DNA of 64,000 bases from Daejeonella lutea (GTDB taxonomy: Bacteria; Bacteroidota; Bacteroidia; Sphingobacteriales; Sphingobacteriaceae): NCBI RefSeq assembly GCF_900168015.1, contig NZ_FUYR01000001.1, forward strand, positions 680,943 to 744,942. Direction: 5' to 3'. The position numbers were made by a program, and so were the translations under genes. Below, piece after piece: positions 25,038 through 61,951 of the stretch. The stretch's first letter is position 1, and every line of letters begins with the position of its first letter. Below the pieces are notes generated by a model. It had not been told where the DNA came from. It was given only the letters and a program-made list of their open reading frames with translations, and did not search any database.

Positions 25038-25065
25038 GAATCAAGAACCTGGGAACAAGATAGAA
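25038..25065. repeat. heptamer array A (weak, four units) with a reverse arm at 25170-25183
   Basis: GAATCAA, GAACCTG, GGAACAA and GATAGAA follow one another in 7-base register. About 105 bases later TTGATTC and TTGCCTC (25170-25183) are units of the same kind on the other strand. It is the most degenerate example of the pattern seen at later spacers. The rest of spacer 24975-25248 holds only two terminators. Confidence 0.45.
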
Positions 25066-25196
25066 GCGAGTTAAGTTGAAGTATAAATTTTGAAGTGTTG
25101 CATGACCCAACTTGCTGTTAAGAGACTATCTATCCGACATGCCCCATACTGGTGTAAGCCACCAAAATTTTGATTCTTGCCTCAAATAATACCCAC

Positions 25197-25226
25197 AAAA
25201 AAACCCTCTCAAATGAATGAGAAGGT
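25197..25226 (-). terminator. intrinsic terminator of the small lipoprotein gene
   Basis: On the minus strand a 9-base-pair stem (ACCTTCTCA with TGAGAGGGT, one wobble) closes a 6-base loop and is followed by seven T's, 22 bases after the stop of the gene at 25249. Confidence 0.85.
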
Positions 25227-25248
25227 CTTTCTTGTAATTTTTGGTTAA

Positions 25249-25446
25249 TTAGTGTTTTACTGAATCAACAGCAACTGCAGCAGCTGAATCAACAGTATCG
25301 ATTTGAGCTTCTAAAGAATCAGTAGTTACTTCTGCAGTAGAATCAATTGTGTCAGCAGCAGCTTCTTCAGTTTTGTTTGAGTTACAAGCAGCAACTGATA
25401 AAGAGATAGCTAGAGCTAAGAAACCGAATTTGAATAAATTTTTCAT
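25249..25446 (-). CDS. small Asp/Ser/Thr/Ala-rich lipoprotein
   Basis: The 65-residue protein has a good lipobox (ALAISLSVAAC, Cys21) after a short basic N-terminus (MKNLFKFG). The mature part of 45 residues is acidic and low in complexity, with repeated TxDS or DS steps (ADTIDSTAE, TTDSLE, DTVDSAA, AVDSV). No fold or function is recognised. Similar small lipoproteins are common in this family of bacteria. It has its own terminator, is transcribed away from the ECF sigma gene and shares its upstream spacer. Confidence 0.75.
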   Translation of the reverse strand: MKNLFKFGFLALAISLSVAACNSNKTEEAAADTIDSTAEVTTDSLEAQIDTVDSAAAVAVDSVKH

Positions 25447-25516
25447 TGTTTAGTGGTTAAAAGTTATTTAAATAATTTACACTTAATACCCGTTAATTGA
25501 AAAGGTAACCCGCTGA

Positions 25517-25545
25517 TTTGAAAAAAATATAAAAAAATATTTTTG
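25517..25545 (+). promoter_or_regulatory. promoter of the ECF sigma operon
   Basis: TTTG at 25517-25520 and TATTTTTG at 25538-25545 are separated by 17 A/T-only bases. Spacing is slightly short of 19. The transcript would have a leader of about 33 bases before the GTG at 25585. Confidence 0.5.
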
Positions 25546-25584
25546 CTATCATTGGGTTACAATTCCCCGTAAAAAGTATTAATA

Positions 25585-26151
25585 GTGAGAAAAGAGATAA
25601 AAAGTTCAGTTCCAGCCGATAATGAGATCATACTGGGAATACTGAATGACTCTAAAGATATATTAAACCGGCTTTACAAAACTTATTTCCCTATGGTACT
25701 TCAATTAGTACTGAACAATAATGGAAATGAGGATGATGCAAAGGATATTTTTCAGGAGTCGGTTATCGTTCTTTATAATAAGGTTAAAAGCGGAAATTTT
25801 GAGCTGAACAGTAAGCTCAAAACTTTTTTATATTCTGTTTGTCGGCGATTGTGGCTGAAACGCCTGAACGCTCAGAGTCGCAATGTTCGAAACATTGAGG
25901 ATTTTTCTGAAATAATTCCTATCGAGGATGATTTGGAGAAGCACGAAGAGAAAGACAGACAGTTTACAATGATGGAACATGCGCTTAAGCAATTGGGAGA
26001 GCCATGCAAGACCATAATTGAAGATTACTACTTACAAAATAGATCTATGCAGGAGATCTCTGAAAAGTTCGGCTATACCAATGCGGATAATGCCAAAACT
26101 CAGAAGTATAAATGCCTGCAGCGATTGAAAAAGCTATTTTTTCAATCATAA
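25585..26151 (+). CDS. RNA polymerase sigma-70 factor, ECF type
   Basis: The 188-residue protein has sigma region 2 at about residues 30-95 (EDDAKDIFQESVIVLYNKV and KTFLYSVCRRLWLKRLN) and region 4 at about 128-185 (KTIIEDYYLQNRSMQEISEKFGYTNADNAKTQKYKC). There is no sigma 1.1 or region 3, as expected for extracytoplasmic-function factors. GTG is taken as start because it gives a full-length N-terminus and no ATG lies upstream in frame. The stop is 9 bases before the gene for the anti-sigma/protease fusion, which probably controls it. Confidence 0.9.
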   Translation: MRKEIKSSVPADNEIILGILNDSKDILNRLYKTYFPMVLQLVLNNNGNEDDAKDIFQESVIVLYNKVKSGNFELNSKLKTFLYSVCRRLWLKRLNAQSRNVRNIEDFSEIIPIEDDLEKHEEKDRQFTMMEHALKQLGEPCKTIIEDYYLQNRSMQEISEKFGYTNADNAKTQKYKCLQRLKKLFFQS

Positions 26152-26160
26152 TTAAAGAAA

Positions 26161-30594: not shown

Positions 30595-30598
30595 CTTT

Positions 30599-30684
30599 GA
30601 GATGAGCCATAAGTTGTGAGAAATGAGCATAAACCTGACGTACCATTTGTGGAACTGGAGCAGATCTCAAATCTCATTTCTCAT
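30599..30684. repeat. heptamer array B, paired inverted arms
   Basis: Five 7-base units run from 30599 to 30633 (GAGATGA, GCCATAA, GTTGTGA, GAAATGA, GCATAAA). Three units of the opposite orientation occupy 30664-30684 (ATCTCAA, ATCTCAT, TTCTCAT). It lies between the convergent yqgE and purE genes; the arms could pair as a hairpin and end transcription from both sides. Confidence 0.65.
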
Positions 30685-31193
30685 CACCCTTCCATCTCTT
30701 TCGCACTCTCTTCCACCTTTTTTCTCAACTCTTCCTTAAAATCAATTAATTTTTGTGATAAAGTCGTATCAGCGGTTCCAAGTATTTGAGCTGCCAGTAT
30801 GCCTGCGTTCTTTGCCGCGTTAAGTGCTACTGTGGCTACAGGAATTCCATTAGGCATTTGAAGGATCGAAAGTACAGAATCCCAGCCGTCAATAGAATTT
30901 GACGATTTTACCGGAACACCGATAACAGGTATATGCGTAATGGACGCAACCATTCCAGGCAGATGAGCAGCACCACCCGCACCAGCGATGATCACACGTA
31001 ATCCTCTTCCATGAGCTGATTTTGCATAATGGAACATCCGCTCAGGGGTTCTGTGAGCTGATACCACTGTCAGTTCATAGCTAACACCTAATTCCTTCAA
31101 AACATCAGCAGCATCCTGCATCACATTAAGATCGGATTTGCTTCCCATTATTATTCCAACCAGCGGTACGTTGGTTTGCTTAGTATTATCCAT
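30684..31193 (-). CDS. purE: 5-(carboxyamino)imidazole ribonucleotide mutase
   Basis: The 169-residue protein has the class I PurE signature [20 protein letters not shown] near the N-terminus, then [11 protein letters not shown] and [16 protein letters not shown]. It converts N5-CAIR, the product of PurK encoded next to it, to CAIR in purine synthesis. The gene follows purK by 32 bases on the minus strand. Its stop abuts the reverse arm of a heptamer array. Confidence 0.95.
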
Positions 31194-33553: not shown

Positions 33554-33662
33554 AGTAATCAGTAGTCAGTAGTCAGTAATCAGTAGTCAGAAATCGGTAA
33601 TCCGTAATCGGTAAACGTTTGGTACTGCATATTCGTTGGCACTGATTACTGAATACTGTTTC
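33554..33662. repeat. heptamer array C, nine units plus reverse arm
   Basis: Nine units in exact 7-base register span 33554-33616: AGTAATC and AGTAGTC variants, degenerating to GGTAATC, CGTAATC and GGTAAAC. A reverse arm of three units (CTGATTA, CTGAATA, CTGTTTC) spans 33642-33662. The arms are complementary in part. It occupies the 284-base spacer between the divergent nuoA and tex genes, in which no gene was found. Confidence 0.75.
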
Positions 33663-37637: not shown

Positions 37638-37845
37638 AAGTATCAAGTAGCAAGTAGCAAGTATTGAGTACCAAGTATCAACCTGCCCGGCGGCAGGCTG
37701 AGCATCGCGTATCAAGATTTGACCGTCGGCAGCGTTTATGGCAGGGCTTAATTTCCGTGTCTTACTACCACATTTTTCGTGTGATCCTGCTAAATCCAAA
37801 CAGGCTTATCTTGATTCTTGATACATACTACTTAATTCTTCGTCT
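37638..37845. repeat. heptamer array D with opposite-strand arm
   Basis: Six units at 37638-37679 (AAGTATC, AAGTAGC twice, AAGTATT, GAGTACC, AAGTATC) are followed by a CCTGCC/GGCAGG hairpin at 37683-37698. A reverse arm at 37811-37845 has TTGATTC, TTGATAC, ATACTAC and TTAATTC. It fills the spacer between convergent genes; the reverse arm ends at the amidohydrolase stop codon. A unit string of array F, 10 kb away, is identical but inverted. Confidence 0.75.
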
Positions 37846-47793: not shown

Positions 47794-48010
47794 AGTATCA
47801 AGAATCAGGTATCAAGTATCAAGATTTTGGGCGGTTTTATTTTATGAGCCTCTAAAAGTCGACGTCATTGGACAAGTTATATTTCGTTTAGCTACGCATT
47901 TCAATATAGATACCCATTACCTGATAGACGATACTCGAATCTTGATATTTGCTACTTGCTACTTGCTACTTGCTACTGGATACTTGCTACTTGATACTTT
48001 ATACCTGATA
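47794..48010. repeat. heptamer array F: four forward units and thirteen reverse units
   Basis: AGTATCA, AGAATCA, GGTATCA and AGTATCA occupy 47794-47821. The reverse arm, 47920-48010, consists of thirteen consecutive heptamers in perfect register, mostly CTTGCTA and CTTGATA with variants CCTGATA, GACGATA, CTCGAAT, CTGGATA and CTTTATA. The reverse arm ends 8 bases before the lutA-like ATG, so it lies in its leader. It is the longest heptamer array in the window. Confidence 0.85.
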
Positions 48011-48018
48011 CTCCTTAT

Positions 48019-48747: not shown

Positions 48748-48753
48748 CTAGTG

Positions 48754-48781
48754 GACAGTTGATTGTTGACAGTTGACAGCT
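48754..48781. repeat. heptamer array G, four units
   Basis: GACAGTT, GATTGTT, GACAGTT and GACAGCT follow in register in the 64-base spacer between two convergent genes. The 15-mer GTTGACAGTTGACAG at 48765-48779 recurs at 61931-61945 in array J, 13 kb away. Confidence 0.65.
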
Positions 48782-48811
48782 GTCTAAACGCTTGTAAAGG
48801 TGAACGTTTTA

Positions 48812-49579
48812 CTATTTCCGTAGGAATGTTGCCAGTTCCTCAATCTTATCGGTGCCAATCAGGTCAACGCGTAGTTTCTTTTGTAGCTTCCAGGACGTAG
48901 TATTATCGGGTGCGGCCCAGAATCGGATGGTTTTGCCTGCGTTGTGGACGCTGTCAACGGTATGCTTTAGCTTTTTAAGATCAGCTTTAGACGGTTTCCC
49001 GTCACCTTTCCATGTCGAGTAACGGGTAAATGAGAGGCTAACCTGGCCGATCCGTTGCCATTCCGCAGGAGTATGTGCGAGTTTGAGATCATCATCGAAC
49101 ATCAGATACGAAGGGTAATTTTTATATTCTGATGGCGGCGGCCTTGTTCCCGTAATTAAAATAGTCAGGGGTTTGTTGGCATCTGGCGAAGAAAGGAACG
49201 CTTTGAGTGGTGACAGTTCCTGAATAAGAAGGTCTAAACTGGCCTTATAATTATCCTTTATATCAACCAGCAGTTTTATTTTCCTTGACGGATTAAAAGA
49301 AAGTTCCAGAGCTAGCGGTTCGAGGTATAGTTTTTTTAGGGTCGCTTCAGCATTGATTTCCTTTTTACTGTGCGCAACAAGTAATTTCCCATTAAGCGGA
49401 TAAATGTCCGCCTCTATCGATGCGAAGCCATTTTTAAACGCTGCATAAAAGGGTGAGGCATTGAGGTAGTCGTTGTGCGAGTGTGCGTTTGAGGTAGAAT
49501 ATTTCTTTGGCTGCGCAATTGCGAAATTGCATAGGATTGTAAGTAATACCAGCGAAATTGATTTTATGTTTCTTTTCAT
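48812..49579 (-). CDS. glycerophosphodiester phosphodiesterase-like secreted protein
   Basis: The 255-residue protein has a signal peptide (MKRNIKSISLVLLTILCNFAIA) and the PI-PLC/GDPD TIM-barrel motifs SNAHSHNDYLNASPFYAAF and GFASIEADIYPLNGKLLVAH. The His and the Glu/Asp residues fit the metal-binding catalytic set. Related proteins cleave glycerophosphodiesters or phosphoinositides; which applies here is not known. It lies 16 bases downstream of the lacI-like gene on the same strand, so it is probably co-transcribed with it. A phosphodiesterase that frees inositol would fit this locus, but that is inference. Confidence 0.82.
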   Translation of the reverse strand: MKRNIKSISLVLLTILCNFAIAQPKKYSTSNAHSHNDYLNASPFYAAFKNGFASIEADIYPLNGKLLVAHSKKEINAEATLKKLYLEPLALELSFNPSRKIKLLVDIKDNYKASLDLLIQELSPLKAFLSSPDANKPLTILITGTRPPPSEYKNYPSYLMFDDDLKLAHTPAEWQRIGQVSLSFTRYSTWKGDGKPSKADLKKLKHTVDSVHNAGKTIRFWAAPDNTTSWKLQKKLRVDLIGTDKIEELATFLRK

Positions 49580-49595
49580 GATAATGTACTTCTGG

Positions 49596-50606
49596 TTATA
49601 TGGTCGACCCCCTCATTATAAAACGTGATGGAACTACCTGGCTTTCTTTGCTTAAATTAAAATCATTTTTTTCCAGGGATTTGAACAGGAGGGTGGCTGC
49701 TATTTTTCCCATTTCGAATGCGGGCTGGGTAATGGTGGTTAGGGATGGGTTAAGTATGGAGGCTGTTTCAAGATTGGAAAAACAAACAAATTTCAGATCG
49801 GCTGGAATGTTGAGGCCTAACGCTTCAGATGCTCTGTAAACCGGGGTAGTTAGTTTCTCCACAGTTGCAACAATGCCGTTCGGTCGGTTCGGCCCCTGCA
49901 ATAATTCCCTGATCAGAATGTCATTTTGAACCGCATCATTTGTACAGTTTATGATCTGTTGACTATCGTAACGCACATGATAATCGTTAAGGGCTTTTTG
50001 ATACCCTTCAAGCCGTCGGTTGCTAATCGAAAGGCATTCTGAGATTCCCAGAAATCCAATGTTATCACAACCTTGCTGAATCAAGTGTTCAGTGGCCTTG
50101 TAGCCACTTTCAAAATCATCAGTGGTGATCTTGGCGGTATCTATCTCATCTAAAACTCTGTCGAAGAATACTAACGGTACTCCGTTGCCCATCAGGTTCA
50201 GGATGTGTGCACTTTCGGATGTTTCCCGCGAAACGGACATCAATACACCGTCAACTCGTCCGCCCTGGAATTCCTGCAGTATAGTTTTTTCGTTCTCGAA
50301 GCTCTCGTGGGTAAGGCAAATAAGTACATGATAGCCTTTTTCCTTGGCCACTGATTCAATCCCGTTGATAGCCAGCGAAAAAAAGCTGTCAGCAACCTCA
50401 GGGATAACAACCGCAATATTCTTGCTCCGTCGCCCGCGTAAACTGCTGGCGTAGGGGTTGGGTACATAGTTCAGCCTTCGCGCAGTTTCCAGCACGCGGT
50501 TCTTTGTATCCTCACTTATCTCATAGCTGTCGTGAAACGCCTTGGATATTGTTCCCACGGAAAGATTCAGCTCTCGCGCAAGATCTTTAATATTGATATT
50601 CTTCAT
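49596..50606 (-). CDS. LacI family transcriptional regulator of the inositol locus
   Basis: The 336-residue protein has an N-terminal LacI helix-turn-helix and hinge (INIKDLARELNLSVGTISKAFHDSYEIS and NPYASSLRGRRS) and a periplasmic-binding-protein-like sensor domain (KNIAVVIPEVADSFFSLAINGIE). It is divergent from the inositol oxygenase gene, with a 12-base-arm palindrome of LacI type between them. It is therefore predicted to repress the locus and to release DNA on binding inositol or a derivative. Confidence 0.93.
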   Translation of the reverse strand: MKNINIKDLARELNLSVGTISKAFHDSYEISEDTKNRVLETARRLNYVPNPYASSLRGRRSKNIAVVIPEVADSFFSLAINGIESVAKEKGYHVLICLTHESFENEKTILQEFQGGRVDGVLMSVSRETSESAHILNLMGNGVPLVFFDRVLDEIDTAKITTDDFESGYKATEHLIQQGCDNIGFLGISECLSISNRRLEGYQKALNDYHVRYDSQQIINCTNDAVQNDILIRELLQGPNRPNGIVATVEKLTTPVYRASEALGLNIPADLKFVCFSNLETASILNPSLTTITQPAFEMGKIAATLLFKSLEKNDFNLSKESQVVPSRFIMRGSTI

Positions 50607-50669
50607 AGCTAAAATTGGCTGTACCCTGCGTTGCTAATAGAGCGAACAAAACAACAGACCATTTCCTCC

Positions 50670-50697
50670 TTATTTGCGAAAACGGTTTCGCAAATAA
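50670..50697. promoter_or_regulatory. palindromic LacI-type operator
   Basis: TTATTTGCGAAA and TTTCGCAAATAA are exact complements separated by ACGG. The core GCGAAAACGGTTTCGC has the CG-rich centre usual for LacI-family operators. It sits between the divergent lacI and inositol oxygenase genes. Confidence 0.8.
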
Positions 50698-50734
50698 AGT
50701 CAGAGTAATATACAACAGTATAGCATAAAAATTA

Positions 50735-50766
50735 CAAAATTAGATTTGCAATTCTTTAAAATCAAA
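50735..50766 (-). promoter_or_regulatory. possible lacI promoter
   Basis: On the minus strand TTTG (50763-50766) is followed after 20 bases by TAATTTTG (50735-50742). The operator lies downstream in the predicted leader, suiting autorepression. A plus-strand TAGATTTG at 50741-50748 overlaps it and may be the -7 box for the oxygenase gene, but lacks a -33 partner. Confidence 0.4.
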
Positions 50767-50776
50767 ACTGTTTGCT

Positions 50777-51667
50777 ATGATTAACGATCAAAAGAAGTTC
50801 ACCGAAAAAGAATTAAATCCTTTATCGAGCCTCGATGTATGGGAAGATGATGTCCTTGAAAGATATCCGGAGCCTGATACTATCGCTACCTCTAAATCAA
50901 CTGAAGAGTATCGTAATTACGACGACCCTGCCAGAGATACTGTAAAGGAGTTCTATCGTTTAAATCATACGCATCAGACCTTTGATTTCGTTCAGGAAAA
51001 GCGCAATAATTATCTCAATTTCAATAAAAAGGAAATGCCGGTTTGGGAAGCTTTCCAGTTCCTCAATCAACTGGTAGATGACTCAGATCCTGATACAGAT
51101 CTTGATCAGTTCCAGCATTTACTGCAGACATCCGAGGCAATCCGCCGCGACGGCCACCCGGACTGGATGGTATTGGTAGGACTTATGCACGACATGGGTA
51201 AAGTACTCTGCCTTTTCGGCGAACCTCAGTGGGCTGTGGTAGGTGATACCTTCCCGGTAGGCTGTGCGTATTCCGATAAAATTGTTTATCCTGAATTCTT
51301 CAAATATAACTCTGACTTTTCCATCCCTGAATATCAAACGAAATACGGCGTCTACGAAAAAGGCTGCGGTTTACGGAATGTGAATATGTCCTGGGGACAT
51401 GATGAATATGTTTATCAGATGATGAAAGATCATTTACCCGAAGAAGGCTTGTATATGCTGCGCTACCATTCATTCTACGCATGGCATCGTGAAGGGGAGT
51501 ATGAATACCTTCTGGATGACCATGACAGAAGCATGTTGAAATGGGTAAAATTATTCAACCCCTACGATCTCTACTCAAAAAATCCTGAGCCACCTGACTG
51601 GAAAAAGCTGAAGCCTTACTATGAGGATCTGGTGGCAAAGTATCTTCCCGCTACCCTTAAGTTTTAA
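50777..51667 (+). CDS. myo-inositol oxygenase
   Basis: The 296-residue protein closely follows animal MIOX. The di-iron ligands are all in place: His114 (QFQHLLQTSEAI), His138 and Asp139 (GLMHDMGKVL), His208 (SWGHDEYVYQ), His231 (RYHSFYAWH) and Asp264 (NPYDLYSK). The segment FGEPQWAVVGDTFPVGC is also kept. MIOX uses oxygen to cleave the inositol ring, giving D-glucuronate. It is the first plus-strand gene after the LacI-type operator, ahead of SusC/SusD and a sodium symporter, which together form an uptake-and-oxidation locus. Confidence 0.95.
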   Translation: MINDQKKFTEKELNPLSSLDVWEDDVLERYPEPDTIATSKSTEEYRNYDDPARDTVKEFYRLNHTHQTFDFVQEKRNNYLNFNKKEMPVWEAFQFLNQLVDDSDPDTDLDQFQHLLQTSEAIRRDGHPDWMVLVGLMHDMGKVLCLFGEPQWAVVGDTFPVGCAYSDKIVYPEFFKYNSDFSIPEYQTKYGVYEKGCGLRNVNMSWGHDEYVYQMMKDHLPEEGLYMLRYHSFYAWHREGEYEYLLDDHDRSMLKWVKLFNPYDLYSKNPEPPDWKKLKPYYEDLVAKYLPATLKF

Positions 51668-51823
51668 GAAAAAACTGATCAAAAAAAGGACTTCCCTGTA
51701 TAAGGGACGCTAACTGAGTACACCTATAATTTAATAATTAGATAACCAGCATCGTAAAAGAAACAGCAATTAAATTGTTTTTCTTCACAACAGTCAATTT
51801 CATTTTTTAAAAGAACATTATTT

Positions 51824-54800
51824 ATGGTAAAAATTTACTATTCAAGGCATTGCGTACATCTTGGTCTGGCATTACTACTTGCCGCTCCATGCGCATTCTT
51901 CCCTGATGTGGCTCTCGCAGAACAAGGTTTCGCCAGGAAAAATGCCACATTTTTAATTCAACAGACGGTTTCAGGCCTTGTACTTGATGGGCTCGACGGC
52001 AAGCCGATGGTTGGGGCCAGTGTCGCTGTAAAAGGAGGCGGTCAATCCACCAGTACCGACGCGAATGGTGCATTCAGTTTGCAGGTACCGGACAATAATG
52101 CGGTGCTTGTCATCCGGTATGTGGGCTATATCACCCAGGAAATTACTGTTGGAAGCAGGTCGCGACTTGAAATTACACTTAAGCCTGATCAGGCGGAACT
52201 GGCGCAGGTTGTGGTGGTTGGTTATGGTACCCAAAATAAAAAAGATATCACTGGTGCGGTTAAGTCGTTAAAAAGTGAGGAATTTAACAAAGGGATAATA
52301 AGCTCGCCTCAGCAGCTCCTGCAAGGTAAAGTTTCCGGGGTTAACGTTACGGCAGCCAGCGGCGAGCCAGGAGCGGCAACCGGAATAACGGTGCGGGGAC
52401 CGGGCGGACTTAGGACAGGAAGTACCCCTTTATTCGTCATCGACGGTTTACCGCTGGATAATTCCAGCACCGGGGGCGGTGATCCACTGGCTTTTATCAA
52501 TACACAAGACATCGAATCGATCGACGTGTTGAAGGATGCATCTGCAACGGCGATCTACGGATCCCGCGGTGCTAATGGTGTTATCATCGTCACGACAAAA
52601 AGGGGCAAGGCGGGTACATCAATGCTTGGCTTTTCAAGCAGCGTAGGTATTTCTAAAATAGCCAGAGCATTGCCTGTTTTTACTGCGGCGCAGTTTCGTA
52701 CCGAAGTTCCAAAGGTTGGAGGCGTGTTAGATGATAAAGGAGGGGATACCGACTGGCAAGATGAAATTACAAGACAAGGTCTGACACAGAATTATAACCT
52801 TAACCTTAGCGGTGGCTCGGAGAAGCTATCTTATTTTGCATCCTTAGGTTCACAGCAGGAGGAAGGCATCATCAGGAAAAACCAAATGGGAAGATATTCA
52901 GGGAGGTTCAACGCAACCCAAAAGTTCCTGGACGATCGCCTGATGGTCGATGTGAATATCAGTGCAAATAATACAAAAAATAGCAGGCCGCCAATCACCA
53001 GTTTACTGAACGATGCTATTGTTTACAATCCGACCTACCCAGCCCGCAATTCGGCCGGAGCCCCTGCGGTTTATCAGGGAACCAATAACCCGCTTCTTTA
53101 CCTGGACCTGAATAAGGAGATAACCACTATCAACCGGGTGATCGGAAACATCTCGCCATCCCTAAGAATACTTAAAGGTTTGGTCTATAAATTGAATTTT
53201 GGAGTAGATAATTCTACCTCTACACGTGATGTTGAATCGCTTCCTAGTACCGTGCCACTGATTGACGGCAGGCTGGAAACCTATTACAACATAAATAAAA
53301 ACACCTTGATAGAAAACTATCTGACCTGGAACTGGAGCAACGATAAGCACAATGTTTCAGCATTGGGTGGTCACTCATTCCAGAAGATCTTTGTTCAGGG
53401 CCGTAATTACAGTATTAACAAATTTATTGTGGGTAATGCAGACCCGATTTATAACCCTGGTGTTGGTCAGGAGCTTACCCTCGCAAATAATCGCCCCGGA
53501 GGTTTTGCATTCAATAATGAGCTGCAATCATTCTTTGGCCGGGTAACCTACCAATACAACAGTAAATATTTGCTGACGGCTAATTTCCGGACCGACGGTT
53601 CTTCGAAGTTCGGAGCGAACAACAAGTATGGCTATTTCCCGTCGTTCTCATTGGGATGGAAGATATCTGAAGAAAGTTTTCTTAAGAATTCCATGTTCAG
53701 CAACCTCATGCTGCGTGCGGGTTACGGAATCACCGGAAACCAGGAAATTCCACCAAAGATCACCCAGGCCCTGTTTAGTTCACTGGCATCGGCCAGCTAC
53801 CCGCTCAACTCTACTTCTGTTTACGCCGCAGGTACAACGTATTCAAGGCTTGCCAATCCGGATATTCAGTGGGAAACTTCGAAGCAAACTAACATAGGAC
53901 TTGATTTTGGATTGTTTAATGGCGCATTGTCAGGAACCCTTGATGTGTTTAACAAAGTCTCTGATAATATCCTGTTACAGGTAATACCAGCAGATCCTGT
54001 TCAACCGGCATCAACGGTATGGTCGAATGTGAAAGACATGACCGTTACCAACAAGGGTGTTGAATTTGCCCTTAACTACAGCCATACCACTGGAAATAAT
54101 TTCACTTATAATATTGGCGGAAATATCACCCATACCAAGAACAAAGTTGAGAATTCGCCATATTCTATAATTCCTTCCGGTTCGGTATCAGGTGCAGGGA
54201 TCACCTCATCCACTATCAATGGATACCTCAATGGTCAGCCAATCGGGACATTCTTCCTGAAAGAATTCACCGGATTTGATGCCAACGGTTTAAGCACCTA
54301 CCGCGACCTCGACGGAGATAATATCATTACAGATAAAGACCGGATCTCTGCAGGAACCGCAGTACCTGATATGCTTTATAGTGTATTTGGAAGCGTGGCA
54401 TTTAAAGGCTTTGATCTGAGCGTAAACATGAACGGGGTGTCAGGCAACAAAACCTACGACTATACCGCTAATGTGGGCTTCTCTAAATTAAGACTTGCCA
54501 AGAACGTGAATGCAACACCAGAATCAGTTGCTAATACAAAAGAATCGATCAATAATGCAGCCATGGTGAGCACCCGTTATCTGAAGGATGGAGCTTATTT
54601 CAGGCTGAACAATGCTTCACTTGGTTATAACTTCAATACCAGTAAACTCGGCATAGGCTGGGCTAATACCTTGCGTCTGTCGGTAACCGGACAAAACCTT
54701 TTTGTGATCACCAAATACGATGGTTACGATCCAGAAGTAAATGCTGACCGTGCCATTGGCGGGGTATCGTCTTACGGTATAGACTTTCTAAGTTATCCGA

Positions 54801-54841
54801 GGGCAAAATCAGTAATCTTTGGTCTAAACCTTTCATTTTAA
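51824..54841 (+). CDS. SusC/RagA family TonB-linked outer-membrane transporter
   Basis: The 1005-residue protein has a signal region, a carboxypeptidase-like domain (about 48-125, VSGLVLDGLDGKPMVGASVAVKG), a TonB-dependent plug beginning VVVVGYGTQNKKDITGAV, and the SusC hallmark KDASATAIYGSRGANGVIIVTTKRG around residue 235. The rest is a 22-strand barrel that ends in an aromatic residue (FGLNLSF). It imports a ligand captured by the SusD partner, using energy from TonB. The locus context suggests an inositol-containing compound. The 156-base spacer before it shows no clear promoter. Confidence 0.95.
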   Translation: MVKIYYSRHCVHLGLALLLAAPCAFFPDVALAEQGFARKNATFLIQQTVSGLVLDGLDGKPMVGASVAVKGGGQSTSTDANGAFSLQVPDNNAVLVIRYVGYITQEITVGSRSRLEITLKPDQAELAQVVVVGYGTQNKKDITGAVKSLKSEEFNKGIISSPQQLLQGKVSGVNVTAASGEPGAATGITVRGPGGLRTGSTPLFVIDGLPLDNSSTGGGDPLAFINTQDIESIDVLKDASATAIYGSRGANGVIIVTTKRGKAGTSMLGFSSSVGISKIARALPVFTAAQFRTEVPKVGGVLDDKGGDTDWQDEITRQGLTQNYNLNLSGGSEKLSYFASLGSQQEEGIIRKNQMGRYSGRFNATQKFLDDRLMVDVNISANNTKNSRPPITSLLNDAIVYNPTYPARNSAGAPAVYQGTNNPLLYLDLNKEITTINRVIGNISPSLRILKGLVYKLNFGVDNSTSTRDVESLPSTVPLIDGRLETYYNINKNTLIENYLTWNWSNDKHNVSALGGHSFQKIFVQGRNYSINKFIVGNADPIYNPGVGQELTLANNRPGGFAFNNELQSFFGRVTYQYNSKYLLTANFRTDGSSKFGANNKYGYFPSFSLGWKISEESFLKNSMFSNLMLRAGYGITGNQEIPPKITQALFSSLASASYPLNSTSVYAAGTTYSRLANPDIQWETSKQTNIGLDFGLFNGALSGTLDVFNKVSDNILLQVIPADPVQPASTVWSNVKDMTVTNKGVEFALNYSHTTGNNFTYNIGGNITHTKNKVENSPYSIIPSGSVSGAGITSSTINGYLNGQPIGTFFLKEFTGFDANGLSTYRDLDGDNIITDKDRISAGTAVPDMLYSVFGSVAFKGFDLSVNMNGVSGNKTYDYTANVGFSKLRLAKNVNATPESVANTKESINNAAMVSTRYLKDGAYFRLNNASLGYNFNTSKLGIGWANTLRLSVTGQNLFVITKYDGYDPEVNADRAIGGVSSYGIDFLSYPRAKSVIFGLNLSF

Positions 54842-54851
54842 TATTTAAGTA

Positions 54852-56540
54852 ATGAAAAAGAAAATATCAACCCTGTTCCTGCTTACTATAGGCCTGACAG
54901 TAATGAATAGCTGCTCGAAGCTCGAAGAAGATATCCTCGACGAAGCCTCAACCAGCGGATTAACCAGTCTCCAACAGGCAGAAGGCATAACAGTGCCGGC
55001 ATACGCAAAGCTTGAAGATATCTTTACGCACACCAATTATTTTTCACTGCAGGAGATCTCGACTGATGAGGCCATCCTGCCATTCCGCGGCGGTACCGAC
55101 TGGGGCGATAACGGCATCTATCAGCAGCTTCACAAACATGAAAACATCAGTTCGGATGTGAATGTGAAGAACACCTGGGACCATATCCTGATTGGATTGT
55201 CGCGGGCTGTAACGGCAATCAATGCGCTGCCGTCTAACCCTGATCCGAGTGCAAAACTTCTTTTGGCAGAAGCACGAGGTATGAGAGCTTATTACTCCAT
55301 GCTTACGCTTGACCTTTGGGGTTTAATCTTTGTGAAAGAAGATGTAAAAGAAACATCGAAGATCCTTCGAGGAGAGGAAGCTATTGCCTACATCAAATCA
55401 GAACTACTTGCCATCGAGCCAGTACTTGAAAATACCACCGGCCCCGGCCGTTTAACCAAAGGTGGGGTTTGGGGGCTGCTTGCCCGTCTATACCTGAACT
55501 CAGCGGTATATCGCGACGTATATGCACCCACATTTACCTTCAAAACGGAGGACATGGATAAGGTAATCGAATACAGTGATAAGATCATTAATTCAGGTCA
55601 GTATGCTTTAGCAGCAGATTACTTCTCCATTTTCAATGATAACAATCACACCAATAAAGAACTGATCTTCGCTGTGGATCAGCGCGCGAACCTTAACGGC
55701 CATAACCGTATGGCATACTTCTCTATATCCGGCGACCAGTTCCCGCTTCCGGCCTATACCGGAGCCAACGGAACCGATGGACCGGCTATTACCCCAGACT
55801 TTTACCGCACCTGGGTGAATGCTAATCTTCCGCTTGATCCGGCAGTAGCTGATCCGCGTTTCCACAGACAAAACCTGGACATCTATACCAATCCAGCTGC
55901 CGAGTGTGTAGATGCTGCCGTATTTAATGTGAACAGGGGTATCCTGCGCGGTCAGCAATACGGACTGCTGAGAACTAACGGCGTATTTGAAAAGTGCGCA
56001 GATGGCAAGATGAAAGTTGGTAAACTATTTTACAATACCCGCAACAGGCCGACACTGCCAGTTGATTTCACTGAAAATGTGGATTATACCGTTGCCGGCA
56101 GTAATTATAATACCGGCTACAGAGTGCTGAAATATGAATTCAGTAAGACCTCGGTAAGCGGCCGTAACTTCGGGGAGCACGATATCGTGATCCTGCGTCT
56201 TGCTGATGTTTACCTGATGCGTGCTGAAGCCAAGCTAAGAAAAGGAGATGCTGCCAGTGCACTAGCTGACGCGAACTTTGTGAGAGCCGCACGTACATTC
56301 ACTAAACCAGCGGCTCCGCTTACATCCATGACCCTGGATATTCTTTTCCGCGAGCGTGGCTTTGAATTTTACTGGGAGATGCTCAGACGCCCTGATATGA
56401 TCCGCTTTGGAAAATATGAAGGCACCTGGACTGAAAAGACCAATTCTGATAAGAATAAAAGGGTGTTTCCGATACCACAAACTGCAATCGACGGTGCGTC
56501 GAATTTGCCGGGGTATTTGAAGCAGAATCCGGGATACTAG
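54852..56540 (+). CDS. SusD/RagB family surface lipoprotein
   Basis: The 562-residue protein has a lipoprotein signal (VMNSC, Cys21) and the SusD fold: helical TPR-like segments (EARGMRAYYSMLTLDLWGLIFV) and the C-terminal block VYLMRAEAKLRKGDAASALADANFVRAAR, followed by LDILFRERGFEFYWEMLRRPDMIRFGKYEG. It should cap the SusC barrel outside the cell and bind its substrate. It follows susC by 10 bases. Confidence 0.94.
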   Translation: MKKKISTLFLLTIGLTVMNSCSKLEEDILDEASTSGLTSLQQAEGITVPAYAKLEDIFTHTNYFSLQEISTDEAILPFRGGTDWGDNGIYQQLHKHENISSDVNVKNTWDHILIGLSRAVTAINALPSNPDPSAKLLLAEARGMRAYYSMLTLDLWGLIFVKEDVKETSKILRGEEAIAYIKSELLAIEPVLENTTGPGRLTKGGVWGLLARLYLNSAVYRDVYAPTFTFKTEDMDKVIEYSDKIINSGQYALAADYFSIFNDNNHTNKELIFAVDQRANLNGHNRMAYFSISGDQFPLPAYTGANGTDGPAITPDFYRTWVNANLPLDPAVADPRFHRQNLDIYTNPAAECVDAAVFNVNRGILRGQQYGLLRTNGVFEKCADGKMKVGKLFYNTRNRPTLPVDFTENVDYTVAGSNYNTGYRVLKYEFSKTSVSGRNFGEHDIVILRLADVYLMRAEAKLRKGDAASALADANFVRAARTFTKPAAPLTSMTLDILFRERGFEFYWEMLRRPDMIRFGKYEGTWTEKTNSDKNKRVFPIPQTAIDGASNLPGYLKQNPGY

Positions 56541-56543
56541 AAG

Positions 56544-56768
56544 GGAGCAAGGAGCAAGAACCAAGAAACAAGAGCCAAGAATCAAGACTCGGGGGTGTGA
56601 ATTCCAAGGGGATCGTAATTTCCCAAAAGATAGTTGTTCATTGGAGCAAGGAATAAGGAGCAAAGATAAAAGACTTTTTCAGGTCGGTAAATGACCATTT
56701 TGGCCACCCGAACAATATGTTTATTTAACCGGGTATAGTCTTTACTCTTTGCTCCTTGCTCTTTGTTC
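56544..56768. repeat. heptamer array H: two forward blocks and one reverse block
   Basis: Six units at 56544-56585 (GGAGCAA twice, GAACCAA, GAAACAA, GAGCCAA, GAATCAA). Three clear units at 56643-56663 (GGAGCAA, GGAATAA, GGAGCAA) with AGATAAA after them. Four reverse units at 56741-56768 (TTTACTC, TTTGCTC, CTTGCTC, TTTGTTC). It fills the 300-base spacer between the susD-like gene and the symporter gene; no gene or terminator was seen there. Confidence 0.75.
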
Positions 56769-56840
56769 ATTTCTACTTTACCCTTTATCTTAACTAAATA
56801 TTTATCTTAAAAAATAATCTCATCCAATCACAAGCCCGCT

Positions 56841-58487
56841 ATGAACCATTTACAATCCCTGGATTATGTAGTTTTCTTTATATATTTTATCGTTGTAAGT
56901 GGTTATGGGTACTGGGTGTACCATCAAAAAACAGCCAAACAGAAGCTGGCAGGGGGGATGGATTCGAAGGAGTTCTTCCTGGCTGAGGGCTCGCTTACCT
57001 GGTGGGCAATAGGGGCATCGCTGATTGCTTCGAATATTTCGGCCGAGCACTTCATCGGGATGTCGGGTTCAGGCTTCGCGCTGGGGCTTGCTATATCATC
57101 CTATGAGTGGATGGCAGCGGCTACGCTGATCATTGTGGCGGTATTTTTTATTCCGATCTATTTGAAGAACGGCATATTTACGATGCCGCAGTTTCTTTCA
57201 CAGCGTTATAATGATACTGTAGCAACGCTGATGGCGATATTCTGGTTGCTGGTATATGTGTTTGTCAATTTAACCTCCATCATTTACCTGGGTGCTCTGG
57301 CTATTAATTCCATCTCGGGCATCAGCTTCGAATGGTGCATGGTTGGCCTGGGGATATTTTCTATCGTCGTTACCCTCGGAGGGATGAAAGTTATTGGATA
57401 TACGGATGTGATCCAGGTTCTGGTGCTCATCCTCGGCGGACTGGTAACCTGTTACCTCGCACTTACACTGGTATCCGAAAAATTCGGTTATGGAGGAGAT
57501 ATTCTGAAAGGCCTCGCGGTTATTAAAGACAAAGCACCTTCCCACTTCCACATGATTTTTGATAAGTCGAACCCATATTATACCGACTTGCCCGGCCTGT
57601 CGGTATTGATCGGAGGGATGTGGATCAATAACCTGAACTACTGGGGCTGTAATCAATATATCACGCAGCGCGCTTTGGGAGCAAGTTTGCCGGTAGCACG
57701 AAAAGGAATTCTTTTCGCGGCATTCCTGAAGCTCCTTATCCCGCTTATTGTTGTGATCCCGGGAATCACGATGTATGTCATGTATCAGAATGGCATGTTC
57801 CAGGCGGAGATGACGGACGTGAACGGATTGGTAAAACCGGATCATTCGTACCCGACCTTAATGAACCTGTTACCGAACGGTCTTAAGGGACTTGCATTTG
57901 CAGCATTGACCGCAGCGATCGTTGCATCGCTTGCAGGAAAAGCAAATAGTATCTCAACTATATTTTCACTGGACATCTACAAAAAGTTCTTCAAAAAAGA
58001 CGCTTCAGACAAGCAGCTGGTACGCACCGGGAGGATCACCGTCATCGTGGCCATGGTGCTGGCAAGTATTGTTGCGCCGGCATTGCGGAACCTCGATCAG
58101 GCCTACCAATTTATCCAGGAATATGTCGGCTTTATTTCTCCGGGAGTACTTTCCATCTTCCTGCTGGGATTCTTTTGGAAAAGAACCACATCCGCTGCAG
58201 CTCTTACATCCGCTATCCTGACTATTCCGCTTTCTACAGTACTTAAATTCCTGCCATTGTGGACGAACGGTGCCTTCCCGGATTTTCCTTTTATGGATCG
58301 GATGACAGTTGTTTTTGTTTTCCTCATGCTGCTTATGGTTGTGATGAGCCTTGCTGACAGGAGTGGTAAGGAAAGGCATAAAGCGCTGGTTATTGATACG
58401 AGTATGTTCAGGTGTTCGCCAGGGTTTATTGTGGGGTCGGTGATTATTGTGGGGATATTGACGGCGTTGTATACGGTGTTTTATTGA
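56841..58487 (+). CDS. sodium/solute symporter (SSS family, SGLT-like)
   Basis: The 548-residue protein has about 14 membrane helices. FFLAEGSLTWWAIGASLIASNISAEHFIGMSGSGFALGLA matches the sugar-binding and sodium-binding N-terminal region of SGLT/SMIT transporters, and LAFAALTAAIVASLAGKANSISTIFSLDIYKKF the conserved Na2-site helix. It should bring a sugar or polyol across the inner membrane with sodium. Next to inositol oxygenase, myo-inositol is the best guess for its substrate. Confidence 0.92.
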   Translation: MNHLQSLDYVVFFIYFIVVSGYGYWVYHQKTAKQKLAGGMDSKEFFLAEGSLTWWAIGASLIASNISAEHFIGMSGSGFALGLAISSYEWMAAATLIIVAVFFIPIYLKNGIFTMPQFLSQRYNDTVATLMAIFWLLVYVFVNLTSIIYLGALAINSISGISFEWCMVGLGIFSIVVTLGGMKVIGYTDVIQVLVLILGGLVTCYLALTLVSEKFGYGGDILKGLAVIKDKAPSHFHMIFDKSNPYYTDLPGLSVLIGGMWINNLNYWGCNQYITQRALGASLPVARKGILFAAFLKLLIPLIVVIPGITMYVMYQNGMFQAEMTDVNGLVKPDHSYPTLMNLLPNGLKGLAFAALTAAIVASLAGKANSISTIFSLDIYKKFFKKDASDKQLVRTGRITVIVAMVLASIVAPALRNLDQAYQFIQEYVGFISPGVLSIFLLGFFWKRTTSAAALTSAILTIPLSTVLKFLPLWTNGAFPDFPFMDRMTVVFVFLMLLMVVMSLADRSGKERHKALVIDTSMFRCSPGFIVGSVIIVGILTALYTVFY

Positions 58488-58498
58488 GATTTCCGCTA

Positions 58499-58705
58499 AT
58501 GCCGCGTGGGCATCTTTACTTTTCCTTCAGCTGAAAAGTAACAAAAAGCCGCCGCTGCGCCTGATGCTATTGAAGCAACTACTGAGGCGTGGCCTGCGGT
58601 TGCCGCACCAGCCAATGCGGATTGACGGTGAACGGGGATGCAGTGCTGAGGCTTAAGAAACGTACACATCGCTTAGCTTTTGTAGACGGGCCGGCCTTCG
58701 GCCCG
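58499..58705. repeat. GC-rich palindrome-bearing intergenic segment
   Basis: The 248-base spacer 58488-58735 has no convincing gene. It is richer in G+C than its surroundings and carries hairpins: ATGCC/GGCAT at 58499-58513, ACTTTTC/GAAAAGT near 58515-58540 and CGGGCCG/CGGCCCG at 58687-58705. It may be a decayed insertion or a dispersed repeat; other copies would have to be sought in the genome. Confidence 0.4.
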
Positions 58706-58735
58706 CGGGTCTCCCGTACCTTATGACCTACTAAC

Positions 58736-59122
58736 ATGCAGATAAGTTTTAAAACCTTCAAGCTCTTTTTCATAACTTTTTCCTGGCTGTATGTAGTTAT
58801 ATGCGTCGTTTTATTCTATGAGTCGCTGCACACTGGAGATGATAAGGACCCGATCATAGGGATGGTTGCCTTAATAATGGGCGTGCTGTTTGGGATTATA
58901 GGCTTCAAAAAGTCAAGTGCTGCAAAAGATCTATTCAATTTATACATGTTCAAAAAATACATGTTCATAGAATTCTTTTTACTACTATTTACTTCCGGCC
59001 TTTACTCGGCAATTATAAACCGTTCTGAATTTGGAAATTTTGCTGCAACGCCAATTATCTTTTATATGTGCTGGATGATTTTTGTGGTTAATGTTATTTT
59101 GGTGGCGAAATATGTGGAGTGA
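58736..59122 (+). CDS. hypothetical small membrane protein
   Basis: The 128-residue protein has four predicted membrane helices (about 8-28, 40-58, 73-93 and 102-125) joined by short loops, one holding TGDDKDP. Neither a catalytic motif nor a known family was recognised. Residue use is typical of a real membrane protein, and the frame is intact from the ATG at 58736. It stands alone between two repeat-rich spacers. Confidence 0.6.
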   Translation: MQISFKTFKLFFITFSWLYVVICVVLFYESLHTGDDKDPIIGMVALIMGVLFGIIGFKKSSAAKDLFNLYMFKKYMFIEFFLLLFTSGLYSAIINRSEFGNFAATPIIFYMCWMIFVVNVILVAKYVE

Positions 59123-59173
59123 ATTGTCGTGAGGCTTCTGTATGTTAATATAATCGTATATTTAAACCCCTCA

Positions 59174-59216
59174 GTCCCGCAATAAGCGGGACAGCTCCCC
59201 TTGAAAAAAGGGGAGC
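59174..59216. repeat. pair of adjacent stem-loops in the thrS upstream spacer
   Basis: GTCCCGC-AATAA-GCGGGAC (59174-59192) is directly followed by GCTCCCCTT-GAAAA-AAGGGGAGC (59194-59216). Each stem is perfect. There is no T run after the second, so termination is unproven; a dispersed repeat is possible. Confidence 0.55.
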
Positions 59217-59281
59217 ACTAGCGTACCCATCGCTAATACCAAATCTATCGACATCATACCCGGTACCGTGTATGACAAGAA

Positions 59282-59323
59282 CGTACAACGTATAACGTAC
59301 AACGTATAACGTACAACGTATAA
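59282..59323. repeat. heptamer array I, six units
   Basis: CGTACAA and CGTATAA alternate three times without error, giving both a 7-base and a 14-base period. It lies about 90 bases ahead of thrS, where it would be in or near the leader. No reverse arm is needed: the ACGT steps make the units partly self-complementary. Confidence 0.85.
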
Positions 59324-59412
59324 CTTAAATCCCTACTTTTACACCCGAATTGATGGTCACTCTGTATATGACCGCTTGTTTCATTTTACATAACTAATAA
59401 ATCATTTTGTAT

Positions 59413-61338
59413 ATGATTAAGATTACCCTTCCGGACGGCTCCGTTCGTGAATATGAGCAGGGCGTGACAGCCCACCAGATTGCCCTTTCGATATCGGAAG
59501 GCTTAGCGCGAAATGTACTAGCAGCACAGGTTAACGGACAGGTTTGGGATTCTTCCCGCCCGATCGAGGCTGATGCCGAAGTTAAATTGCTTACCTGGAA
59601 CGACCTCGAAGGCAAGAATACGTTCTGGCATTCTTCAGCTCACCTGATGGCAGAGGCTTTGGAGGCGCTATACCCCGGAACTAAGTTTGGTATTGGTCCG
59701 GCGATAGAAACCGGCTTTTATTATGATGTAGATTTCGGCGACCGCGAGTTTTCTTCCGACGACTTTAAGCAGATTGAAGAGAAGATTATGGAACTGGCCC
59801 GCACCAAGGCTGAGTTTTCCAGAACAGCAGTTTCTAAAGATGAGGCTGTTAAATATTTTACTGAAAAGGATGATGAGTATAAGCTGGATCTGATCAAGGA
59901 TCTTACTGACGGCACCATCACATTCTATACCCAGGGCAATTTTACTGATCTCTGCCGCGGGCCGCATATCCCCAATACTGGCTTCATTAAGGCGGTTAAG
60001 CTGATGAACGTTGCCGGGGCATACTGGCGCGGGGATGAAACCCGTAAACAGCTTACCAGGATCTATGGAGTTACCTTTCCGAAACAAAGCGAACTGACCG
60101 ATTACCTGCACATGATCGAAGAAGCCAAGAAACGCGATCATCGCAAGCTTGGTAAAGAGCTGGAGCTTTTTGCTTTCTCGGAAAAAGTAGGAATGGGCCT
60201 GCCGCTATGGCTTCCAAAAGGAACTGCTTTACGCGAGAAGCTGGTGAATTTCCTGCAGCGCGCACAGGTTAAGTCCGGTTATGAGCAGGTGATTACCCCG
60301 CATATTGGGCACAAGAATCTTTATGTTACTTCCGGCCACTATGATAAATATGGTGCTGATGCATTTCAGCCGATAAAAACCCCGCAGGAAGGAGAGGAGT
60401 TCTTCTTAAAACCAATGAATTGTCCGCACCACTGCGAAATTTATAAAACTAAACCAAGATCCTATAAAGATCTGCCTGTACGGTATGCCGAGTTCGGAAC
60501 AGTATACCGTTATGAGCAAAGTGGCGAGCTGCATGGCCTGACCCGTGTACGTGGTTTCACCCAGGACGATGCGCACTTATTCTGTCGCCCGGACCAGGTA
60601 AAGGAAGAGTTCAAGAAGGTAATTGACCTGGTATTATATGTTTTTAAAGCCCTTGGCTTTGAGGACTATACCGCTCAAATTTCACTTCGTGATCCGGCAA
60701 ACAAAACCAAGTATATCGGTACTGATGAGAACTGGCAGCTGGCTGAAACGTCCATCATTGAAGCAGCCGAAGAGAAAGGACTGAAAACTGTAGTTGAGCT
60801 TGGCGAAGCCGCATTTTACGGTCCGAAGCTCGATTTCATGGTAAAGGATGCATTGGGCAGAAAATGGCAGCTGGGAACCATCCAGGTAGATTATAATCTG
60901 CCGGAGCGATTTGAACTCGAGTACACTGGCCGCGATAATCAGAAACACCGCCCGGTAATGATCCACAGGGCACCTTTCGGATCGCTGGAGCGCTTTGTAG
61001 CGGTGCTTATTGAACATTGCGCCGGCGAATTTCCATTATGGCTTACACCCGAGCAATTTATCGTGCTGCCGATCTCTGAAAAATATGAGGATTATGCAAA
61101 AAAAGTTTTAGAATCGCTTAATAATTCCGATATTCGCGGCTTGATTGACTCCAGAGATGAGAAGATTGGCCGCAAAATACGCGATGCCGAAGTGAAGAAG
61201 ATACCGTACATGCTCATAATTGGTGAAAAGGAAATGAATGATGGTATGGTTTCTGTTAGGAAACATGGCCACGGGGATGCAGGAAGCATGACCTTGGAAG
61301 AGTTTAGCAATCAGTTAGTTAAAGAAATAACAATTTAA
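59413..61338 (+). CDS. thrS: threonyl-tRNA synthetase
   Basis: The protein of 641 residues from the ATG at 59413 has the full bacterial layout. TGS domain ([20 protein letters not shown]), editing domain with [11 protein letters not shown] and [12 protein letters not shown], class II catalytic core (motif 2 [26 protein letters not shown]; motif 3 [19 protein letters not shown]) and anticodon-binding domain. It charges tRNA-Thr. A TTG two codons upstream is less likely as start. It heads the classical thrS-infC-rpmI-rplT order, with infC 12 bases downstream. Confidence 0.96.
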
Positions 61339-61350
61339 GTAAATAGTAAT

Positions 61351-61923
61351 TTGGCATTAGGAAGACCAGGATTTAATAGAGGACCACGCCCTCCGTTTAA
61401 AAAGAAGGAAGCTGAGCACAAGATCAATGATCTGATCAGGGCCCCGGAGGTCCGGGTTACCGGTGACAACGTTGTCACGGGTATTTATCCGTTCAGAGAA
61501 GCTTTAGCAATGGCGATTGAACAAGATCTTGATCTTGTTGAGATTTCCCCAAATGCAGTTCCGCCTGTATGTAAGATTGTTGACTACAACAAGTTTATCT
61601 ACGAGCAGAAAAAGAAAATGAAGGAAATTAAGTCCAATGCAAAACAAACGATCATTAAAGAGATCCGTTTTGGGCCTAATACCAACGATCATGATTTCCA
61701 GTTTAAGCTGAAGCATGCGATCGGATTCCTTGAAGGTGGTGAGAAGGTGAGAGCCTATGTTCACTTCAAGGGCCGTGCAATTGTTTACAAAGAGCAGGGA
61801 GAGATCCTTTTATTAAAGTTCGCCCAGGCATTGGAAGATGTGGGTAAAGTAGAACAGTTACCGAAGTTAGAAGGAAAGAGGATGTTTTTGACGGTAGCGC
61901 CGAAAAACGCGGGTAAAAAGTAA
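61351..61923 (+). CDS. infC: translation initiation factor IF-3, with TTG start
   Basis: The 190-residue protein has the N-terminal domain segment [20 protein letters not shown] and the C-terminal domain ([37 protein letters not shown]). The protein begins at the TTG at 61351; it is the only usable initiator because an in-frame TAA lies 15 bases upstream and the next ATG is about 50 codons in. E. coli infC likewise uses a rare codon (AUU), against which IF-3 itself discriminates, so feedback control is plausible here too. Located 12 bases after thrS. Confidence 0.95.
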
Positions 61924-61930
61924 TTGATAA

Positions 61931-61951
61931 GTTGACAGTTGACAGTTATCA
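61931..61951. repeat. heptamer array J inside the infC-rpmI spacer
   Basis: GTTGACA, GTTGACA and GTTATCA follow in register, 7 bases after the infC stop. The first 15 bases are identical to part of array G at 48765-48779. It would lie within the thrS-infC-rpmI-rplT transcript. Confidence 0.55.

Follow-up and report, generated by a model that had tools for sequence, protein, structure and literature searches.

Our analysis concerns a 64,000-nucleotide stretch of the Daejeonella lutea genome (hereafter the window; contig 10 of the 4.03 Mb genome G000, positions 680943-744942), in which many intergenic spacers carry tandem arrays of seven-nucleotide (7-nt) units. Among named genomes, the 24 best thrS hits belong for the most part to Pedobacter, Mucilaginibacter or Sphingobacterium, which makes the host Sphingobacteriaceae-like. 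Such arrays form a true class of repeat, patchily widespread and in part described before. We tentatively read those of D. lutea as the form taken in Bacteroidota by the heptameric intergenic repeats of Xanthomonas, Nostoc and Beggiatoaceae, with arms that may have been made by templated copying and not by slippage. Spacers hold one or two arms, at times more, built of 7-nt units from a small vocabulary. Under our proposal, these arms would lengthen chiefly through templated, strand-specific copying of units already present rather than by one-unit slippage. DNA 3' ends in the spacer would be extended along dispersed heptamer tracts and then sealed, and the resulting arms would persist where neither coding sequence nor promoters are disturbed. 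A gene-regulatory role is not needed for the observed distribution, though one may exist.

Counts against shuffled controls confirm that period 7 dominates the intergenic tandem repeats of three species of the genus. Across 864 kb of D. lutea, 101 intergenic period-7 arrays were found at a score of at least 30, against 3.5 per shuffle, and 56 against 0.0 at a score of at least 40. This is far above other periods, the next being 11 with 18 against 3.2, and the arrays are mostly intergenic, since coding sequence in the same 864 kb held 18. Two comparison species gave 29 intergenic period-7 arrays against 2.0 in shuffles (G003, 420 kb) and 35 against 3.4 (G010, contiguous 1-500 kb, which replaced an initial sample chosen at known arrays and therefore excluded from the rates). 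The dominance is not general across the phylum: 100-kb samples of G004 and G013 held three such arrays each, and among 80 thrS loci from named genomes a period-7 array occurred in 14, periods 9 and 12 being commoner when coding sequence is included.

Clustering of 117 D. lutea arrays from 985 kb gave one singleton and six dispersed families, each spread across several genome stretches: AGTTGAC (28 arrays), AAGTATC (27), AGTAATC (21), TTAGGCx (18), GTTGTAC, of the GTTNTAC type (12), and GGTCTGA (10). A first-pass annotation of the window had assigned each array its own unit and argued from a shared period without shared sequence. Several different units do occur, one as a singleton, but the argument is wrong as stated, because six families each recur at many loci. 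The common process that it proposed behind the shared period is nonetheless supported, both by the dominance of period 7 in three species and by the recurrence of a single family, the CAACT type, in 68 of 247 genomes of Bacteroidia. The scrambled control word CTACA was found in 9 of these 247; the reversed-pattern control overlaps the CAACT target, and the reverse of CTACA, ACATC, has matches of its own in several genomes and resembles a separate heptamer word. Some D. lutea words recur elsewhere in the genus, alongside others such as AATAGGA and GAAAACT. Among 20 genus genomes, D. lutea included, counts of AGTTGANAGTTGA run from 188 (D. lutea) and 115 (G010) down to 0 in four genomes, which makes the trait patchy; the reversed-pattern control is void for these counts because AGTTGANAGTTGA is identical when read backwards.

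Within the window, the nine period-7 spacers named by the first-pass annotation are real, and its list of units does not follow the order of its coordinates. Tandem Repeats Finder (TRF), with which the window arrays were called, places period-7 arrays at seven of the nine sites (33554, 37638, 47794, 48750, 56544, 59280 and 61930) and also at two partner arms absent from that list (47930-48012 and 56739). When the lag-7 signal of each spacer was set against 1000 dinucleotide shuffles of its own sequence, no shuffle reached the observed value in six of the nine. The remaining spacers gave p=0.010 (30599) and p=0.015 (61931), which backs both, and p=0.43 (25038). Alone, the 25038 site is not significant; in G003, however, the orthologous spacer shows both arms of a clear array that belongs to the same family, and we therefore take the site to be an eroded array. 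Inverted partner arms at 33640, 37810, 47930 and 56739 had been overlooked. The first 25 kb is empty of arrays, as had been observed (0 of 12 spacers against 7 of 24 in the rest), though this is weak evidence of the uneven distribution drawn from it; 25-kb bins of a contiguous 290 kb held 0 to 10 arrays each. A known Rfam structured RNA was rejected, there being zero matches at gathering threshold in positions 25000-64000 of the window.

The arrays are placed and oriented with respect to the ends of spacers. In D. lutea they occupy 20 of 87 convergent, 43 of 356 tandem and 11 of 114 divergent spacers, and lie within 10 nt of the flanking stop codon in 36 of 83 cases and of the flanking start codon in 3 of 65. 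In tandem and convergent spacers of all three species, the strand richer in G mostly runs inward from each of the two flanking genes. By family labels, whose orientation was assigned after the data were seen, 41 pairs of arrays adjacent within a spacer comprise 28 inverted and 13 same-direction pairs; a word-overlap method gives instead 22 inverted pairs, 8 direct ones and 9 of mixed family. Twenty-six of the 28 inverted pairs share one outside-in order, both exceptions falling in a single composite stretch (L138). Lone arrays take the left-arm orientation in 22 of 25 cases in the left half of the spacer and in 1 of 19 in the right half, and seven of nine mixed-family pairs obey the same polarity. 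The sign of G-C skew, which is free of such labels, gives the same picture (arrays with G>C to arrays with G<C): left 47:13 and right 11:41 in D. lutea (p=1.5e-9; 115 of the 117 arrays covered), left 14:1 and right 3:9 in G003 (p=7.5e-4), and left 10:3 and right 3:16 in G010 (p=9.2e-4). Pooled over the three species, the counts are left 28:13 and right 5:19 in ++ spacers, 12:1 and 5:14 in -- spacers, 23:0 and 5:23 in convergent spacers, and 8:3 and 2:10 in divergent spacers. The identical left-right pattern in ++ and -- spacers led us to reject transcription direction as the source of the polarity. Twelve distant Bacteroidia, selected for carrying CAACT arrays, gave left 11:11 and right 1:20 (p=0.0015).

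A possible but doubtful alternative is that replication slippage with a preference for 7-nt steps produced these arrays as ordinary long simple-sequence repeats, which spacers tolerate. Such a step was proposed by Mrazek 2007, as cited in the excerpted text of PMC4679880 and PMC4692102, where most of the genomes studied are also reported to have heptamers as their commonest class. The dominance of period 7 in D. lutea intergenic DNA favors this account, as do some 14-nt duplication, local expansions at some sites and the transitions of the AGTAATC family, which are taken up below. It does not predict families dispersed over many loci, a polarity tied to spacer edges, uneven columns or missing similarity between neighbors. 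Among arrays of at least five units without indels, the similarity of adjacent units (lag 1) was not above that of shuffles in any of the three species (z=-1.8, -1.1 and -0.5 on 32, 12 and 7 arrays), and this counts against stepwise slippage because such slippage predicts that neighbors should be more alike. Minority letters are unevenly distributed over unit columns in all six families (p from 1e-4 to 6e-44, on 108 of 116 arrays, eight being left out for poor fit), with one or two columns holding most of the variation in the AGTTGAC, AAGTATC, TTAGGC and GTTGTAC families. GTTNTAC is nearly fixed except at its fourth base (86% at the final position), AGTTGAN ends in G, C or A, T making up ~2%, and the minority letters of AGTTGAC are mostly transversions (129 against 45). 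In a mirror test, which has low power where units are nearly alike, none of 21 same-family inverted pairs beat unit-order shuffles at the 5% level, and mirror-copied hairpin arms were rejected accordingly. Simple one-unit slippage thus explains poorly a set of arrays without neighbor similarity, with unmirrored unit order and with uneven columns. We count in favor of spread by copying the word CTAAACGC, chosen post hoc as the top word, which 13 of 76 spacers with arrays contain, against 0 of 511 without, and which is placed after left arms of several families. A genus-wide core motif was rejected, as ACTAAACGCTG is clearly above control only in D. lutea (15 against 1) and near control in the other 19 genus genomes.

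Comparison of orthologous spacers reveals both persistence and turnover, and the arrays are not absent from relatives, some of the same spacers carrying them in other species. Among 121 spacers orthologous between D. lutea and G003, arrays are present in both species in 10, in D. lutea only in 6, in G003 only in 6 and in neither in 99 (9, 6, 6 and 96 under a stricter identity cut). The expectation for shared sites, stratified by spacer type and length, is 4.33, and 1 of 5000 permutations reached 10. D. lutea and G010 share 6 sites against 2.67 expected (64/5000), and the 3 shared by G003 and G010 against 1.90 expected (1391/5000) are not significant. At shared sites the exact sequence changes, and in roughly half of the cases so does the unit family. 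Judged by eye, the family is kept at 5 of the 10 sites shared with G003 and at 1 of the 6 shared with G010. At four or more of the 12 one-sided sites between D. lutea and G003, what remains in the other species is a decayed array from the same family. Gains or losses also exist: the G003 spacers orthologous to 37638 and to the infC-rpmI gap lack the arrays, and the spacer before 48019 has a GATACCT array in G003 and, by eye, none at 14 other genus loci. The G003 spacer orthologous to the 30602 site is only ~8 nt long. Before rpmI, where D. lutea has AGTTGAC units, G010 has a different tandem expansion of local sequence, ATAGACAA-like.

These data bear on a rather unlikely reading, in which the arrays are selected, polar binding sites, with fixed bases and one or two free ones in every 7 nt, for a DNA- or RNA-binding factor acting at gene ends as a boundary, a transcription end or a Chi-like brake. 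Such a factor would account for the contrast of fixed with free columns, which stands out best in TTAGGNN, GTTNTAC and AGTTGAN, as well as for a polarity that holds across families and for the sharing of array sites beyond chance in two of three species comparisons. The presence of six unit families in one genome speaks against it, as does the different family seen by eye at 5 of 10 G003-shared and 5 of 6 G010-shared sites; sharing between G003 and G010 is not significant, and there is no candidate factor.

Several observations weigh against the templated copying that we favor. With regard to polarity, the orientation labels behind the pair counts were picked post hoc, a weakness that the skew test avoids; polarity is not significant in the 80 thrS loci (p=0.29), and purine skew agrees with it in D. 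lutea and G003 but not in G010 (p=0.49). Array-free spacers overall carry a mild bias of the same sign in D. lutea (259:176) and G010 (118:92), the G003 value (100:71) not being significant. In array-free divergent spacers the bias is strong in D. lutea (71:28) and G003 (26:6), with none in G010 (22:25), for which reason arrays in divergent spacers show little. Where convergent spacers are free of arrays, there is no such bias in D. lutea (29:33) or G003 (2:14) and a weak one in G010 (16:10), unlike the arrays in convergent spacers, which are nearly one-sided. With regard to construction, besides the limited power of the mirror test, the column contrast is less clear in the AGTAATC and GGTCTGA families, the minority letters of AGTAATC are mostly transitions (73 against 33), a lag-2 excess in D. 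lutea only (z=3.3) shows some 14-nt duplication, and local growth in some spacers, such as that of G010 before rpmI, is slippage-like. With regard to agents, none of four tested enzymes (Y1_Tnp, reverse transcriptase, Ku and sbcD) is common to the array-rich genus genomes. Reverse transcriptase is found in 3 of the 20 genomes, all array-rich (p=0.026), is missing from array-rich G010 and G018, and looks unlike between D. lutea and G003 (L274, L275); its association with the arrays is weak, and as a common cause it is unsupported. The G003 gene adjoins one resembling a HerA-type ATPase, an arrangement we presume to be that of defence loci. Ku, present in 6 of 20 genomes without array association (p=0.34) and absent from G010 and G018, gives no basis for end joining, which was rejected. 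Array spacers are not enriched at broken gene order (odds ratio 1.36, p=0.5 against each of two species), and synteny breakpoints at arrays were rejected, an array-flanked 10-kb indel being a single anecdote. In that case, ~10 kb (48812-59280), both ends of which bear heptamer arrays, is missing between the same flanking genes in the compared G003 stretch. The divergent-spacer background and the AGTAATC family have slightly lowered our confidence in the writing mechanism, which we infer with low confidence.

Two further accounts invoke mobile DNA or the loss of a nuclease. It is very unlikely that a transposase moves the arrays as the two arms of a mobile palindrome of the REP/REPIN or MITE kind. 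Such an origin would fit the inverted pairs, the dispersal, the sites in relatives that lack arrays and the CTAAACGC core shared within D. lutea, and the near-control counts of ACTAAACGCTG in the other genus genomes, the unmirrored arms and the pairing of arms of different families argue against it. No conserved ends or target duplication were seen by eye, though not systematically, at the compared sites. Y1_Tnp, the REP transposase domain, has zero matches in D. lutea, the genome with the most AGTTGA arrays, on which ground a REP/RAYT element was rejected. It is extremely improbable that loss of the SbcCD hairpin nuclease lets inverted arrays accumulate. The sbcD gene occurs in 2 of 20 genus genomes, both without AGTTGANAGTTGA (AGTTGA) matches (p=0.05), as this account would have it; one of them, G013, has five CAACT-type matches, and CAACT arrays occur in 8 of 46 Bacteroidia with sbcD over the cut-off, some with many, against 60 of 201 others (p=0.10). 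Genomes with both sbcD and many arrays exist and weaken the account, which is unsupported. A telomere-like form of writing also appears distinctly improbable. Here an activity would add heptamers from a small species-specific vocabulary to 3' ends in spacers, on the G-richer strand, leaving two independently written facing arms, and the same process with other words would lie behind the heptamers of Xanthomonas, Nostoc and Beggiatoa.

The arms recognized in the window are collected in Table 1. Genes were called with a simple caller, which missed rpmI; with rpmI in place, the 61930 array sits in the short infC-rpmI gap.

Table 1. Heptamer arms and associated features, in window positions
Position	Strand	Feature	Basis or remark
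25037..25063	+	Probable decayed left arm, CAAGAAC/AAGTATC family	Lag-7 p=0.43; G003 ortholog clear
25172-25183		Weak right arm facing the 25037 arm	
30602..30627	+	Degenerate left arm, ATGAGNN-like units, convergent spacer	By eye
30666..30685	-	Inverted right arm, CTCATNN	Spacer lag-7 p=0.010, best stretch from 30656
33554..33614	+	Left arm, AGTAATC family, 8.7 copies	TRF score 73; same family in G003 ortholog
33640..33658	-	Short inverted right arm, AGTAATC family	By eye
37638..37681	+	Left arm, AAGTATC family, 6.3 copies, 5 nt past stop codon	TRF 53
37810..37840	-	Degenerate inverted right arm, AAGTATC family	By eye
47794..47823	+	Left arm, AGTATCA, 4.3 copies	TRF 46
47930..48012	-	Right arm, GATACTT/CTTGCTA, 11.9 copies, ends 6 nt upstream of ATG	TRF 82
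48750..48779	+	Left arm, AGTTGAC, 4.3 copies, 2 nt past stop codon	TRF 39
48784-48791		CTAAACGC motif after the 48750 left arm	
56544..56587	+	Left arm, GGAGCAA/CAAGAAC, 3 nt past stop codon	TRF 30 and 45
56739..56765	-	Inverted right arm, TCTTTGC	TRF 40
59280..59324	-	Right arm, alternating AACGTAC/AACGTAT, upstream of thrS	TRF 69; same family before G003 thrS
61930..61947	+	Left arm, AGTTGAC, 2.6 copies, between infC and rpmI	TRF 36
61991-62188		rpmI (ribosomal protein L35)	Named from sequence

Other repeats accompany these arms. After rplT, positions 62674-62886 hold an array of mixed 8- and 9-nt units (TAGGATGA, TAGGATTCA) with a 17-nt period and 12.9 copies, akin in style to the heptamer arrays, yet not of period 7. 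Palindromes of the CCTGCCTGCCGGCAGGCAGG type, seen at 37682-37697 and in other spacers, are enriched in array spacers, with CGGCAGGC present in 9 of these 76 and in 0 of the 511 remaining spacers. At three AGTAATC-family loci (L179, L187 and L122), composite modules such as GGCTTCGCC and GCCTTCGGC alternate with AGTAATC units; these modules are common to several loci and are possible tight hairpins.

Heptamer arrays have relatives among known bacterial repeats. The short tandemly repeated repetitive (STRR) sequences of cyanobacteria are heptamer tandem repeats, and in this respect the arrays described here are like them. REP/BIME and REPIN elements form inverted pairs, found mostly after stop codons and between convergent genes; the present arrays differ in their tandem 7-nt unit and in that no RAYT-type domain was found in D. 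lutea. They differ from slippage-made repeats in that neighboring units are not more alike. Reports of a heptamer excess in bacterial spacers go back years, with no settled cause, and the facing polarity, unmirrored arms, uneven columns and lack of neighbor similarity reported here argue against plain slippage, just as the missing G-tracts argue against quadruplexes as a common cause. New, to our knowledge, are the polarity of facing arms across unit families, their unmirrored order, the unevenness of the columns and the case against slippage by single units. Within the open-licence literature we found no paper on such arrays in Sphingobacteriaceae. The first-pass annotation knew of no counterpart described in Bacteroidota, which does not hold: the excerpts of MacGregor 2015 (PMC4679880) and Rehm et al. 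2015 (PMC4692102) on which we draw show that counterparts are already in print, and tandem repeats are surveyed by phylum in PMC4060949, likewise seen in excerpt.

The excerpted text of MacGregor 2015 (PMC4679880) describes TAACTGA direct repeats in Beggiatoaceae, Cyanobacteria and five Bacteroidetes, mostly in short sets, mixed with related units, that lie directly upstream of starts. The likeness lies in intergenic 7-nt direct repeats with such mixing. The unit differs, 985 kb of D. lutea holding a single TAACTGA pair, inside an AGTAATC-family array (L137), and placement upstream of starts is not shared with our arrays, which lie after stop codons and in facing pairs. The closest correspondence is with the heptameric repeats of Xanthomonas and Nostoc (GGGAATC and GGGGA(C/T)T) in Rehm et al. 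2015 (PMC4692102). The excerpts of that paper, which also cite a general heptamer excess in bacteria and mention three heptanucleotides in Calothrix, describe mostly intergenic repeats with fixed and variable positions. In Xanthomonas, GGGAATC forms 70 and 75 convergent inverted pairs, the G-rich units lie almost exclusively nearer their 5' open reading frame (ORF; 28 against 160 nt), and 16% lie between convergent ORFs against 7-8% between divergent ones; Nostoc has few paired repeats. As far as these excerpts go, the D. lutea arrays match in their 7-nt tandem units, mostly intergenic position, variable positions, facing pairs, G-richer unit by the 5' ORF and preference for convergent spacers, with the reservation that the divergent-spacer background here has the same sign as the pair polarity. 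They differ in having six families, mixed-family pairs and changes of family between species at some orthologous spacers. The main units also lack the G-tract that marks the Rehm type: AGTTGAC, AAGTATC, AGTAATC and GTTGTAC hold no GGG. Quadruplexes therefore cannot be the common cause, and the arrays of D. lutea are a variant, not a member, of the type that Rehm et al. described.

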